A stretch of DNA of 64,000 nucleotides from Ascidia mentula (lineage: Eukaryota > Chordata > Ascidiacea > Phlebobranchia > Ascidiidae), in the NCBI GenBank assembly GCA_947561715.1, contig OX387200.1, positions 11,100,501-11,164,500 of the forward strand. Direction: 5' to 3'. Shown here one piece after another: positions 17,988-26,173 of the stretch (position 1 is the stretch's first letter; each line of letters opens with the position of its first letter). The translations under genes were made by a program, and so were the position numbers. The notes under the pieces were generated by a model that was not told the origin of the DNA, did no database searches, and saw only the letters and a list, made by a program, of their open reading frames with translations.

Positions 17988-20900
17988 ATGATGCATGTTT
18001 ATCAAGCAGTTTGTATATTTGCATTTTTTCATGTTGCTTTGACACAAACCGCAGGTAAGCAATGTATAACTTAGATGCATTTTAGACTAACCTTTGGAGT
18101 GTTTCTCGAACGTTTACTGTTATGTTCCCCCCATGTTGTAGCTACATTTTATTTTTTGTATAACACATAAAAAAGCGATTCTATTTTAATAAAAAACTGA
18201 TGATTTTTCTAATTATAATTTTGAACACCTTATAAGAGCTGTCTGCCAGATTGATTTTTTCAGTTTATACTTGGCAACTAAAAAAATGTGACGTTTTGAT
18301 GGCGATGTCAAAGATTGCGAATTGTAAAAAATAGCGACCAATATTAGAAATAAGGACAACATGACTGCCAGCCCGACGATGCCGAATGTTAGTTGGACAC
18401 AAAATAGATATCAATAAACCAACTTTTCATTCATCCCTAAACAAATTTCATTTATCCCTAAACAAATTTCATTCACCCTGGTATGAACCATTCAGAATTA
18501 TGAATCTGACGTTCTTCTGGTGAAAAACAACAAATATACACCTTTTGTTTAAAAAAGATTGTATTTTACGTACAGGGGAAACGTCAGAAAATACAATCTT
18601 TTTTAAACAAAAGAAGTATATTTGTTGTTTTTTACCAGAAGAACGTCAGATTCAATAATTCATTATGATACCTGGTGGTCACAACCTATTTTCAATTTTC
18701 ATGAACCATTCATTCGGTTAAGAAACACTGGACTGGCGATAAATAGTGCTTGTAATTCAGGAAACGCTGCTACAGCAATAAAGAAATGTGAAGACACAAC
18801 AATAGCTACTTGTAATCAATGTATACAAGCTCACCCTGACTGCGTTTGGTGTGCAGCTACACAAACGGCTATTTCCATTAAACGCTGCCAACACAAAAGG
18901 TAAATTGACTTTCTGAACCAGTTATGCCTTTTTTTACTGAAGAGACAAAGTCGGAACGTTGCGAATTGCGGTAGCTTGATTGTTCCGTGTTTATATTTGC
19001 AGCAAGGCAACAAACTGCCCAACTCTTGTTGAAAGCCCATCAGGATCAATTAATCGTACAAAAGACGTTCCGCTTTCAACGGCAAACTCTCAACAAAACC
19101 AATCATCTGCCGTTCAACTACAGCCCCAAGAAATTCGCATCAAACTAAGAAAAGGTACTTTCAAAACATGGTCAATGCAGTAAAGAAATTATTTTCACTA
19201 ACAGGGGAGTCCAAAAAGTTTAATGTCACATTCCGGAAGGTGGAGGATTATCCGGTAGATTTGTACTATCTTATGGATTTGTCATTTTCGATGCATGATG
19301 ATTTGCAAGTACTGCAGGGACTTGGAGCTACTTTGGCACAAGAAATAAAAAACAATGTCACGAGCAACATAAAGGTATAACAACTTGTTGTACGAAACCA
19401 CTGTTCGTAATTATGACCAAGCCTAGTAGCTCCGACAAATTTATTGTTGTATCATTTCCATACACACTGATTAAAGGCAAATAGCCACCGCCATTTACAA
19501 TAATACTCGTGTAGACATGATACGTTCGCCCTATATGAGAACCTTTAACTCGCGCGAATTAAATAGTCACAGCACGGACATAACGATATAGGCTACCGGT
19601 ATTGAAAAATTTCTTACACTTCTCCCCGACGCGATTTGATCACTAACATCTCGGAAACCCGCGCAAATTTGTTTATGCCGCCAAATACGGACGAGTCTGT
19701 CGTAATCTGGCGATGAATCATCCATTCTTCCACAGTTGTACAATGAAATACACTGTACTCAGTTGAAAAGAATAGTTGTCACGATACTGAAAATGATATT
19801 GGATTAATTGGTATTTTAAGCCTTACAGGGAAACCTATCATCTCATTACATTATTTAGATTTTTTATTGGCCAATAGTCCTCCCTGTGCGTAGGCTAGTT
19901 ACAAGTAACCTACACTATTTTGCCAATTCTAGATGAAATAAAGTTGTTGCATATTAGGTGCTGGTATTGGTATTCAATTCAGTTTGTTTTCATCATCAAG
20001 TAGCCTATACAATACAAATAAAAACAATGAAAGTAATGAAATGTGACGAGGAACTAATTAAAATCCATGTATGCAATATTGCAGAAACATTTGATCTGTT
20101 TTAAATGTGCCCAAAAACTTTTGGTATATGCATAACCTAACAAATAGTATTATGAAATGTGGTCAGTAGAGTCATCTGTCTATAGATTGGAATTTTTAAT
20201 ACTACTTTTTTTTATACAAGAACAATTTTATTTTTCACTTAAATACACTTTAGATATATGACTAACCAAAGTCAATCCCACAATTTTCTGTTGTTTTTAT
20301 CAAAGCTGTTTGTAATTTAGATGGGGTTTGGAACATTTGTTGATAAAGTGATGATGCCTTTTGCAAGCACAGTACCAGAACAGTAAGAAAAATGTCTCGT
20401 TTTACTGTTTTGTGGTTGTGCAATAATTGACATGTTAAACAATTTATGTTAGACTGAAAAATCCATGTGCAAAGAATCAACAGAATACAAAGTGTGCACC
20501 TCCATTTGGCTTCAAACACCAACAAAATATATCATCAAATCTTGAAAACTTCAAAAACAGTGTGAAGAATACCACAATATCAGGAAACATTGACTCACCA
20601 GAAGGCAGTTTTGATGCTTTAATGCAAATTGCTGTATGCTCAGTAAGTGATTCATAAATTTGAATGTTGTTTAAAGAAAAAGTGTTTGGTGCCTCGCTGC
20701 ACTGAAGTGCTTGGAGATTTAAAATATGCAATAATTTATGTGTACTTGCGCAGGAAAAAATTGGCTGGAGGCCACAAGCAACACATTTGGTGGTTGTCAC
20801 TACTGATGCATCTTTTCACATGGCTCTTGATGGCAAATTAGCGGCCATCTTAGAAGCCAATGATATGCAATGCCACCTTACAAAGGTTGCTACTTCTAGT

Positions 20901-23900
20901 TTGTTTTATGATTACAAGCATTGATTCAAATTGTTAAACAGGGATACAATAAAGAGCTTCCAAATGACATTGTTTACTCAAAAAGTCAAGAACTTGATTA
21001 TCCCTCAATTGGGCAGCTGCGGTCAGTATTTCAGGCAAAGAAGATTCAACCTATATTTGCTGTGACAAAAGAAGTTCGGCCCCTCTATGATGTAAGATTA
21101 ATGTTCAAATCATGTGATACTCAACTTACCCACTGACCTTAAATTCATTATGGTAAAACAAGTTTACTTAAAATTTAGGTTAAACAAGTAATCAGTAGGT
21201 AAGTTGTTTTTTTGGTAACAAACAGGCATTGTTTTAATTTTTGTGTTAAATTGGTCAATAACATTGAAAATTTATAGGGTCTCAGCCAGCTAATACCCAA
21301 TTCCTTTGTTGGAGAGCTTGCAGCAGATTCAGGAAACATTATTACAATTATCAAGACAGCGTATAATGTATGCAATAAAATATTCTCATTTACAAACTTA
21401 ATCAATCATATCCATGTGTGTAGCAACTCAAAGAAAAACTAGAAATGACCCTTGGCGATAATAAGCCACCTGAAATTGACATTAGCTACCGTGTTTTCTG
21501 TCCCAACACAACATCTTGGAAAACAAATGGGGATCTCAGCTGTGATCAAATTAAGATTGGTAGTGAGGTAACATAGATTGTGCAATGACATTTTATATGT
21601 GTAAATAGACATTTGATAACTGCATGGTGTACACTATCCATGTCATTTATATGTCATATGTACATACAATTCATGTTAAGGCCATATAAATATGTTGCAA
21701 CAGTGTATGTGTTTTTTAATGTTTAAAAGTAAAATATATTGTAGGTGGTTTATGAATTTACCGTAACAGCTACTGATTGTCCCACAACTGCACCCAGTCA
21801 ACCAGTTATATTTACATCTAACTCCTTGCAGGAAGATGTCAAAATATACTTTGGTAATTATATACATCGATTGATATTATTTATGTAAAAAATGCTTTAC
21901 CTGTATACACAGTTTACATTTATCAAACCATTTTAGGCTGTAGTAACTTTTTGAAACCAAAATCATTTAACAAAAAAAATCATTTGTGTCTGATGAGTAA
22001 ATAATGTTATGTTGCAGATTTTCTCTGTACCTGTGACTGTTCAACTGCAAGTATGCCAAAAAGTGTTAACTGCAGCATGAATGGGACTTTGGTTTGTGGG
22101 ATATGTGACTGCGATTCCACTCATGAAGGTGCAACTTGTCAATGTTTGAGGGATAAAGTTGACCAGTCGGTTGTAGAAAAATGTCGCAAAACCCAACCTA
22201 ATGGGGATCTATGCGAGTAAGAAAAACTACCAAACTAGTTTTCTGGGGAATTATAAACTGAAATTGATCACAGGGGGCATGGAAAATGTGAGTGTGGAAA
22301 TTGTCTCTGCAATGATGGATACTTTGGTTCTTACTGTGAGTGCAGCAGCAATGGATGTCCATCGAGTGATGACAAAATATGTGGAGGTTGAGGGTTTTAA
22401 TGTCTTGTAAATATTAAGAATATAAATACGACATTTATAATTTTTTAGGACCACAACAGGGTGTTTGCTACAACTGCAACAACAATCCTAAATGCAACTG
22501 CACAAATGGGTGGACTGAATCAAAAATAGGTACATGCACATGCCATGAAAACCTGTGCAAAGCAAATGTTACTGATGTTAAATTATGCAGTGGAAATGGT
22601 TTTTGTGATTGCAGTAGATGTGTGTGTAACTCAGTAAGTAAATTCAAAATGTAATAGATTTTTCAAGTATGTGACAACCATGTTTAAATTATCAGACAAT
22701 ATATGCTGGACAGTACTGTGACAAATGTATTGATCCAAAGTGCAAACCACCTCAGGAACCTTGCAATACACAAATTGCCCAATGTGCTGCATGTCTTAAC
22801 AATGCCCAACAGATGCGACATGTTAGTTGTTTGTATAATGTACAGTACTGTTTACTGTCTTGCTGACATCAAATTTCATTTTTTAAGGATGCCCAGCAAA
22901 CATGCAAACAGCAATGTAATGAAACAAAATATTACCTCGATGACAAAATACCCAATTGTGTTCAATGTACAACCAACTGCCACCCAAAGTGCAGTGAAAT
23001 CGATACGTATGTATCAATATGTATTGTGCAAAATTGTCTTTTAAAGATCTGACAGATTATAAATTACAGGACAAAACTTCCTCCTACTCTCTGCACTCAG
23101 CCACGAACTGATTCACTATGTACAATTAGCTACCAAGTTGTTTGGAGCAAATCAGAAAATGATTATTTGTTGTTAGTCAAGCATTACAATAAAGAAACTG
23201 GTAAATGTCATCTCTAATACAATCCTTGTAGAAGTGTAGAATCTACGATTTTGTTTTGTTCAGATTGCCCTCCACCAACCAATGTTCTTCTAATTGTGTT
23301 ACCTATTGTAATTGGAATTGTGGTCATTGGAGTTATTGCTTTGATTGCATGGAAAATATACCAAACTATCAGAGACAAACGAGAATGGGTAAACTTTGAA
23401 AATGAAATGAAAAAGTCCAAGTGGACAAAGGTAATGTGTACTGGCATGCTTTTTTCAATTCCACTAGTTGCAATGAGATTAACAAATTCAAATATTATGA
23501 AGAAATGCAGTCTGTTGTCTGCTACTGTCACGGTTGCTTGCTGTTGACACAGAAAAATAACTTTTTTGTCAGAATGCAATTACAAGTTTTTCTGACAATG
23601 TGCCACCTTAATTAAATGCAGCATGGGGCTGGATGTTAGGGCTGAAAACTAAACAGAATTACCCATATTTCACTTATGCATGTGTTGTGATTTGTGCAAT
23701 TTTATTACAATCTTATTTTGCCGCTGCAATTCCTAAACAACTTTTATTGATTAGGGGCAAAACCCTATTTTCGAAAAGCCATTTACTAGATTTGAAAATC
23801 CAACCTTTCATGGAAACTGAACAACAAAACATATTGTGGTGAGTTGCCAGATTGAGATTGTGTGCATTGCTATTTAAACTATTTGCTTCCACAGACTGTG

Positions 23901-24131
23901 CAATGATGTTTGTGTGCATTGCAATGTTGTTTGTGCAAAAGCTATCGCCAGGATATTGTCCATTTTCAACTGCACTGTACTCCAGCAAGATTTGTGTTAT
24001 ATTTTTGCCCACTGTCATGGCTATATGGGGAATTATTTGCACCGTTATGTTTTGATTAGGATATTAACCCCGTGTTTCAAAAGCCAACCTCGAGATTTGA
24101 AAATCCATCATATGGAGGGGATGAACAGTAG
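17988..24131 (+). CDS. ITGB: Integrin beta subunit, complete, with two alternative last exons
   Basis: This is a single-pass adhesion receptor subunit that pairs with an integrin alpha chain. Exons: 17988-18054 (signal peptide), 18761-18899 (PSI domain, CxxCIQxxPDCVWC), 19003-19154 ([11 protein letters not shown]), 19205-19374 (beta-I domain with MIDAS DLSFSM), 20321-20382, 20453-20642 ([14 protein letters not shown]), 20754-20885, 20941-21091, 21278-21367, 21424-21567, 21745-21853, 22018-22216 (FLCTCDC start of I-EGF), 22274-22386, 22449-22633, 22696-22821, 22888-23006, 23070-23200, and 23264-23430 (membrane helix, then a [16 protein letters not shown] tail). The last coding exon is either 23755-23820 or 24060-24131, both in phase 0. 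Introns are short except 19375-20320, where I see nothing. The MIDAS Asp and Ser residues are present, so ligand binding should be metal dependent. Confidence 0.95.
18502..18653. repeat. Near-perfect 152-bp foldback (hairpin) element
   Basis: Arms of about 68 nt begin GAATCTGACGTTCTTCTGG and end with the reverse complement. They enclose a short loop near 18570-18585. It lies in intron 1 of the integrin gene and has no coding potential. It is probably a foldback MITE; no clear target duplication was seen. Confidence 0.8.
23755..23820 (+). CDS. ITGB: Integrin beta last exon A (NPIF/NPTF tail)
   Basis: The acceptor is TTGATTAG before 23755. The 22 codons read [21 protein letters not shown] and stop at 23818-23820. 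It joins in phase 0 to the exon ending at 23430. The two NPxF motifs take the places of the NPxY motifs that bind talin and kindlin PTB/FERM domains; neither contains tyrosine. Confidence 0.85.
   Translation, partial: GQNPIFEKPFTRFENPTFHGN
24060..24131 (+). CDS. ITGB: Integrin beta last exon B (NPVF/NPSY tail)
   Basis: The acceptor is TTGATTAG before 24060, nearly the same context as exon A. The 24 codons include NPVF, then [12 protein letters not shown] and a stop at 24129-24131. It joins in phase 0. The distal motif has tyrosine (NPSY) where exon A has phenylalanine. The open frame and both motifs are conserved, so it looks functional rather than a relic. Confidence 0.75.
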   Translation, partial: DINPVFQKPTSRFENPSYGGDEQ

Positions 24132-24668
24132 CCACAAGTTCATTCAACATTGCTTGAATGGGAGCAGCACCCAGTTTAAAAATGTACTTGGACGCAACGT
24201 AATGTCAAGTTCACATTTTATGTGTAATTACTTCTTCACTGCCCTTTTTTTTCAATGTTTGATTACAGCATGTACAACTTTCACTGCATATTTATTGTTT
24301 TTTTTTTGACAAAGGCAGCCACAGGCTTCATAATCAAGTGCACAAATAATCATCACTATTTATATCAACATTTTGGGAAGATAAAATTATTTATCCAACT
24401 AACTTAATAAGTGCACCAAACACAATCACATACTCCAGCAGTGTAATCTTGGAAGTGGCATTATGTTTAAGAAATGTACTACATTCTTGCCAAACTGTCG
24501 AGGTTTTGTAATTAATGCATGATGACACTACCAGCACCAGTCTCTTGAAGATATACATAAAAACAAATTAGGGATTGTGCAATTGATTAGATTTAGCATC
24601 CAGTATTTCTTAATGAAAACGAAAAACACAATTATTACAACTTTTCCTGAAATTCTAGGTAATATACT

Positions 24669-26173
24669 TCATGAATTAGTGTCAGTGCCATCATCAGAAT
24701 CAGACGAATCTGCAATTGCACCAATTGCCAAAAATTTTGAGGTTGATTCATTGTTTCTACCAACTGTTGATGTATTTCCTGGATTCATAACATTTTTGTA
24801 ACATACGTCACAAACCCGCAAAGGTTTTGAAGATTGATGTTGAATGACTGCCTTGTGTGAAGAACATGAATTACACACAACAAAGCCACACTTCCGGCAA
24901 TGGTGTCTTCTTTGAATTGCAGAAAAATGGGTTTTGTTGCACCTCATACACTCCTCAGCTTCTCCATCTGGTACCCAAGCAGGTGCACTTTCTACAACAC
25001 TTCCATCTAATCCTTGAAAGTGCAGTATTACATTTTGGCAATTATAGAAATGATTTTAAAAGTTTAAAAAATAAATAATTACTTGATTAGTTTAAAAATT
25101 ATCAATTTATCAGCTCCACTTTTCACATACTTGTAATATTATTAGCAAGGTCATTAACAGCTTGTACCTCCTTTTTTTCTTTCTTCTTCTATACATCTAT
25201 TCATGTGTGTCATCCATTCCTGTTTTTCCATGGGTGTTTGAGCATAAACAGCAAAAGTTTTTGTTGGAGATATAATTAACCATCCATTTCGAAGGTCATT
25301 TCCTTCATGAATATCTGCACTTGAATTGCTGTCAGGGATTTCTTCCACTCTGACATGCTTCAAGCTGATTATATGTTGTTTGTTGTATCTAAATATAGTG
25401 TAAGTGGAATGTAATTTGCTATATATCTAACCAAAAAGTACCCACATAAACCAATCACAACTAGTCAAAGTCAAGATGTCTAAATGCAACGGTTTTATTT
25501 TTGTTAGCTTGCAACCTAACACAACCAACTAAAGAAATAACTTTCATTTCTTGTCAAAAACAAATGCTTAAGCACAAAAGCAACATGAGAATATATTGTT
25601 TATGTAGTTCAGTTATTCATCTGCAACAGCGCACAGCTCTCACTATTTAGAAGAAAAATCACTGGTATTTGGATTCACACCATGATCATTTCAAAATTAT
25701 TTTCTTGCTCTTAATTTAAAGGATTGGATTATTCTAAATACATTTTATATTTGTTCGTTTTGATGAAATGCATTGTTACATATCCTTCAAGATAAGTTGA
25801 TGAAAGTTATTTATTCACTGTTTTACTGTGATGCCATCACACAAATTTAAATAAATAAACTCAAAATGTTTCCATGTTTTACAATGTTAAAGGTTTCAAA
25901 AAAATAGCCAACTTGGACATTGAGCAGTTGTGAAAAAAAAAATTACTAAACCTACCTCTTTTTTGCAATGACAATATTTCCATAGACAATAATGTCATTG
26001 AAAAGAAAAAATTGTCGTTGCTTAGGTTTCTTTCTACATAGCTTTGTTAAAACACCTTCACCCACTAAAACCCTCGATGGATTGGACAAAGATTTTCCAG
26101 ATGAACCAAAACAAGTTTCAACATGGCTAATTCGCCTAGTATTTATTTCAGTATTGGCTAGTCTTTCAACCAT
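24669..26173 (-). CDS. PLEKHF2: Phafin, PH and FYVE domain protein (PLEKHF1/2)
   Basis: This endosomal phosphoinositide-binding adaptor has three exons: 26173-25956, 25388-25168 and 25012-24669. The start MVERLANTEINTRRI matches the vertebrate phafin start MVDRLANSEANTRRI. The PH domain includes GEGVLTKLCRKKPKQRQFFL, FNDIIVYGNIV and DLRNGWLIISPTKTFAVYA. The FYVE domain has WVPD, CxxC, RRHHCRKCG, CNSCS and RVCDVC; all zinc ligands and the PI3P-binding RRHHCR are intact. The C-terminus is acidic (DSSDSDDG), as in PLEKHF2. The start is only 123 nt behind the ENSA stop on the same strand, and an AG acceptor (26188-26189) lies 14 nt before the ATG. That suggests trans-splicing from an operon. PLEKHF1 versus PLEKHF2 is not decided; the acidic tail favours 2. 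Confidence 0.93.

Follow-up and report, generated by a model that had tools for sequence, protein, structure and literature searches.

Two diverged copies of the last coding exon in an integrin beta gene of Ascidia mentula and the alternative cytoplasmic tails they would encode

The window analyzed here, a stretch of 64,000 nucleotides from the genome of the ascidian Ascidia mentula (assembly of 195.8 Mb in 79 contigs), contains an integrin beta gene whose last coding exon is present in two diverged copies. Both copies lie on the plus strand and are referred to below as exon A (23755..23838) and exon B (coding part, 24060..24131). We consider it probable, from the sequence of the locus, that the last coding exon of this gene was duplicated long ago and that exon A is now a cassette exon carrying its own stop codon, so that splicing would yield a receptor with either tail A or tail B. 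With exon A included, the receptor would end in NPIF..NPTF and exon B would become part of the 3' UTR; with exon A skipped, it would end in NPVF..NPSY. Both exons, their phase, their stop codons and their splice-site-like ends can be read in the DNA, and we infer that each of the two exons is used.

The shared coding region of the gene (18708..23430, plus strand) was built by hand as 17 modelled exons and 16 GT-AG introns and forms a single open frame once spliced; its first position, 18708, is an arbitrary point within an open stretch and not the coding start. In the spliced protein, the Pfam families over their cut-offs were Integrin_beta, I-EGF_1 and Integrin_b_cyt. The integrin beta VWA domain and the I-EGF repeats are present, with 338.1 bits for PF00362 (cut-off 24.8) and 30.1 bits for PF18372 (cut-off 26.1), and PF23105 (EGF_integrin) reached 21.6 bits in the shared region, under its cut-off of 27. 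When the head region was compared with solved chains, integrin beta-1 was the top match (319.7 bits), followed by beta-2 (313.1 bits) and beta-3 (309.8 bits), and because these scores are so close no vertebrate orthologue was assigned. The last shared exon (23264..23430, plus strand) encodes the transmembrane segment and the membrane-proximal tail and ends with KWTK in phase 0. Its donor (AAG/gtaatg) scored 6.1 with a splice-site matrix derived from the 16 introns of the gene itself. Two further features were observed at the edges of the gene. An inverted repeat (18501-18567 and 18588-18654) closely precedes the first modelled integrin exon; its arms are 67 nt long, 96% complementary and separated by 20 nt, and it looks like a small hairpin-type mobile element. 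At the other end, on the minus strand (24669-25426), exons encoding a FYVE zinc finger (74.1 bits) and a PH domain (25.9 bits, cut-off 25.1) belong to a convergent gene facing the 3' end of the integrin beta gene.

Exon A is 84 nt long and encodes 21 residues up to a TGA codon (23818-23820), followed by 18 nt, and the coding part of exon B encodes 23 residues up to a TAG codon (24129-24131). Each is in frame with the exon ending at 23430, and the same TTGATTAG stands directly before both, at 23747..23754 for A and at 24052..24059 for B (plus strand). A sequence-only reading of the window had described two in-phase tail exons behind the same acceptor context, and this description held for coordinates, phase and acceptor. 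The alternative tails that it had proposed were likewise recovered. Tail A reads GQNPIF..NPTF and tail B DINPVF..NPSY, with two NPx[Y/F] motifs in each, and each completes the PF08725 domain when joined to the shared part (69.2 bits for A and 67.1 bits for B, cut-off 23.4). On the exon alone, A obtained 23.4 bits, just at the cut-off, and B 22.2 bits, just under it. An earlier tail-profile scan contained A and B and was therefore circular for the window. A profile built independently from two paralogs and three human tails, with A and B left out, ranked B (29.4 bits) and A (27.3 bits) as the top two of 127,888 positions on both strands, the next one scoring 12.9. Further tail exons were also sought on the plus strand of the window with the profile that included A and B, and only these two scored above 12.1. 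A search for an allelic copy that could reveal polymorphism returned the window itself as the sole match. In viral contigs, 27 stretches fit the pattern searched for, and none of them encodes a relative.

The acceptors of the two exons are mid-range among the real acceptors of the gene, with a score of 6.2 for A, above 7 of the 16, and of 6.8 for B. Directly after exon A stands a candidate donor, GTG/GTGAGT (23839..23844, plus strand), the sole GTRAG in 23201-24300, with a score of 4.0 that exceeds those of 7 of the 16 real donors. Exons A and B do not stand out by their splice-site scores. Within 23431-24300, four unused GT sites scored above the donor of A, seven acceptors scored at least 4, and acceptor-like sites of at least 6.8 other than that of B were found at 23573 (7.6), 23622 (6.8) and 24269 (9.0). 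By the matrix of the gene, sites as good as the donor of A occur about once per 100 nt. Another acceptor-like stretch can be seen by eye between A and B, at 23880-23895 (CTTCCACAG), 56 nt past the candidate donor of A; it scored 2.7 with the matrix and, if joined to 23430, would lead to a tail stopping after three residues.

The region from 23701 to 25100 was scanned for nine polyadenylation hexamers. The first polyadenylation-like hexamer after A was GATAAA (24380..24385, plus strand), a weak candidate for a common 3' end, and none of the nine types was present in 23701-24379, a range that covers the stretch between A and B. On this count we rejected a reading of exon A as a terminal exon polyadenylated at a signal of its own. 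Since GTGAGT directly follows A and no polyadenylation hexamer precedes B, the best reading of exon A is a cassette exon that brings its own stop codon. Of the duplicated last exon as first read, the two tail exons stand; it is less likely that A and B are competing terminal exons than that A is a cassette exon carrying both a stop and a donor, and the evidence for that donor is modest. The two acceptors might also compete with no second splice involved, in which case A would be a long terminal exon extending through the A-B stretch and through B to the common 3' end, giving the same proteins from another mRNA. The donor after A has a middling score and is unusual for this gene, as G at +3 was found in 0 of its 16 real donors and is present in GTGAGT. 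Yet GTRAGT occurs only 52 times in 128,000 positions, meaning that about 0.016 copies are expected in 40 nt, and one stands 18 nt past the stop of A, which makes such read-through unlikely in our view. If the donor of A were unused, the same two proteins would be made anyway. With A as a cassette exon, its stop lies 18 nt before the exon end, so that a transcript including A would escape nonsense-mediated decay under the mammalian 50-nt rule.

Several comparisons bear on the duplication itself. The A/B pair is the longest direct repeat in 22500-25500 (56 nt, 73% identical, 305 bp apart), and the local alignment of acceptor and exon between A and B scored 55, the best of 300 dinucleotide shuffles reaching 31. 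By these alignments, A and B are a real duplication. The two copies share 39 of 63 nucleotides and 11 of 21 residues, with a dN of 0.38 and a dS of 1.92 (NG86), a dS near 2 being rough for 21 codons in a pair chosen for its resemblance. The surrounding intron had also been read as duplicated, within a local tandem duplication of about 300 bp, and this part did not hold. Once the 8-nt acceptor was removed, the upstream introns scored 25, below the shuffle mean of 30.8, and 268 of the 300 shuffles reached that score; a recent tandem duplication of about 300 bp was rejected because the introns are not alike. The downstream flanks scored 39; in both of two overlapping versions of the test, 6 of 300 shuffles did at least as well, and a wider comparison was matched by 74 of 300, so the similarity of the downstream flanks is at most a weak signal. 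As the introns have no detectable similarity and A and B agree at as many residues (11 of 21) as A does with the last exon of a neighboring paralog, the duplication is taken to be old.

Duplicated exons often decay, and one of the two could be a relic that splicing now skips, leaving the gene with a single tail. Both exons, though, keep their frame, their acceptor and both NPx[FY] motifs, and neutral decay rarely does so. When decay was simulated with 24 random substitutions and no indels (20,000 trials from each exon), the frame remained open in 0.44 of the trials starting from B and in 0.52 of those starting from A. Both NPx[FY] motifs survived within an open frame in only 0.0007 or 0.00055 of the trials; the fraction with at least 11 agreeing residues was 0.0144 or 0.0082, and that reaching the observed BLOSUM score was 0 or 0.0001. 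The upstream introns have also lost detectable similarity and the exons have not, a contrast that would look the same if one copy were constrained and the other were young in its decay. On balance, a relic exon is quite unlikely. The changes between the copies follow a pattern consistent with selection on each of the two proteins, and each copy looks like a selected protein sequence. Under the favored reading of two functional tail exons, A and B would both be spliced in, with the choice presumably regulated by tissue or stage.

The genome also offers three integrin beta paralogs for comparison. The first, L008 (G000:C67:11045500-11051500), shares contig and strand with this gene, lies about 76 kb upstream of it and has a single last exon, GVNPIF..NPAY. 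The second, L009 (G000:C72:4796000-4803000), has the tail NPGY..NPKF, extended at its C-terminus by a stretch with many acidic residues, and the third is designated L010. At the proximal site, A, B, L008 and L010 carry NPxF and L009 carries NPGY; at the distal site, B, L008 and L010 carry NPxY, and A and L009 carry NPxF. A distal NPxF is therefore not unique to A in this genome, given the NPKF of L009, and among the five tails only A is without tyrosine in either motif. The last exon of L008 agrees with A at 11 of 21 residues and aligns with it at a DNA score of 45, reached by 0 of 300 shuffles; its DNA score with B is 26, reached by 8 of 300. Because A is closer than B to the L008 exon by DNA, the duplication could predate the split from L008, and it may have been followed by the loss of one copy in L008. 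Plus-strand scans of 6-7 kb around each of the three paralogs, with a profile that included A and B, found no convincing second tail exon. The L008 scan (6,001 bases) returned only its known tail, and the L010 scan (7,001 bases) its own tail and one match of 10.0. In the L009 scan (7,001 bases), the own tail scored 14.6, between a match of 18.6 upstream of the transmembrane exon and one of 12.9 about 4.3 kb downstream, both extra matches being tentatively read as chance.

The human ITGB1 gene includes an 81-bp alternative exon D, the inclusion of which produces the muscle form beta1D (PMC6156287). Four variants of the beta1 tail have been described, with beta1D found in striated muscle and its NPxY kept, in a source whose reference list names papers on beta1D from 1996 and 1997 (PMC3412830). 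The arrangement, of which the sequence-only reading knew no description, is thus already on record for ITGB1 exon D in these two sources. In both genes, homologous alternative tail exons start at the same place, directly after KW-x-x (KWTK/GQNPIF and KWTK/DINPVF here, KWDT+GENPIY and KWDT+QENPIY for beta1A and beta1D), both tails carry two NPx[Y/F] motifs, and the exon is short (81 bp there and 84 nt here). The human exon D lies before ITGB1 exon A and has its own stop. A cassette layout of this kind is the likeliest reading here, with a stop at 23818-23820 and GTGAGT at 23839, a candidate donor of middling score. The two genes differ in that beta1A and beta1D have tyrosine at both sites, whereas here the proximal site is Phe in both tails and the distal site of A is Phe too.

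A switch already present in the common ancestor, with the A/B pair homologous to the vertebrate beta1D/beta1A pair, would account for the same tail position and the same order, D preceding A in the human gene. Among solved chains, beta1D was also the best match of both tails, B reaching 39.2 bits and A 36.4, ahead of beta3 at 33.0 and 32.5; in this ranking the E-value of the beta1D structure entry is helped by its short chain. Part of this likeness comes from two residues between the motifs, a proline and a phenylalanine, that are also common to A and B. Common descent, however, predicts that A should resemble beta1D and B beta1A, and the BLOSUM pairing gave 82 for this combination, 104 for the swapped one and 125 within genes, values of little signal over 21 residues. 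This order, together with the outcome of the paralog scans above, leaves homology to the vertebrate exon D unsupported and, to our mind, highly improbable, and it weakly favors a duplication independent of exon D. The layout with A as a cassette exon would work like human ITGB1 exon D but more likely had an origin of its own.

Terminal exons have been duplicated in other genes as well. Among human duplicated-exon events, 77 of 236 are C-terminal, and the 3' exons of tropomyosin were duplicated independently in human, fly and worm, according to a study whose main text does not name ITGB1 (PMC9741552). Such tandem-duplicated terminal exons resemble the present case in their homologous alternative C-termini and differ from it in the genes concerned. 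KRAS exons 4A and 4B have a similar layout. Outside vertebrates, no report of the arrangement was found in searches of an open-licence library, aimed in part at tunicates, invertebrates or duplicated exons, and a paper on Ciona integrins does not contain the string 'splic' in its main text (PMC1145181).

Because the proximal site is Phe in both tails, the distal Tyr is the sole tyrosine difference between them. A splice choice between Phe and Tyr had been proposed to switch a phospho-regulated tail on or off; the difference at the distal site is there, and "on or off" overstates its effect. Mammalian beta2 has NPxF at both sites, and mutating either motif stops podosome rescue (PMC4179490). 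In beta3, the change from Tyr to Phe perturbs platelet function (PMC4179490), and Dok1 recognizes phospho-Tyr in the proximal motif of several beta subunits, whereas in beta2 it recognizes phospho-Ser (PMC4479986). Tail A resembles beta2 in having Phe in both motifs, docking being kept in beta2 according to these two sources. The two differ in that beta2 is a separate gene with no splice choice and has a threonine triplet between the motifs, compared with a single threonine in tail A. Since the NPxF motifs of beta2 work, Phe should remove phosphorylation and not docking. By this analogy, both tails would still dock talin and kindlin, tail A would lose tyrosine control, and regulation by tyrosine phosphorylation at the distal, kindlin-side motif would be restricted to tail B. 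A linker of four residues joins W to the first motif, and its last two residues also depend on which exon is chosen, giving TKGQ with A and TKDI with B. This linker tunes talin1 binding in beta2, beta3 and beta7 (PMC12637224), and beta1D has a threefold preference for talin2 over talin1 (PMC6032930). By comparison with these integrins, the difference between TKGQ and TKDI may tune talin binding.

As this type of arrangement is already known, the surprise is limited, and the new part is the chemistry, with one NPxY tyrosine in B and Phe at both sites in A. We put forward only tentatively, as a possibility that may well prove wrong, that an exon-D-like switch evolved independently outside vertebrates, that it removes the only NPxY tyrosine, and that splicing sets which cells have tyrosine regulation on the kindlin side. 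If both tails are made, this single gene would offer a natural comparison of Tyr with Phe at the distal docking motif, and it would probably be a convergent counterpart of the beta1A/beta1D switch. The role of tail choice in adhesion could then be asked in a setting where docking and phosphorylation come apart.
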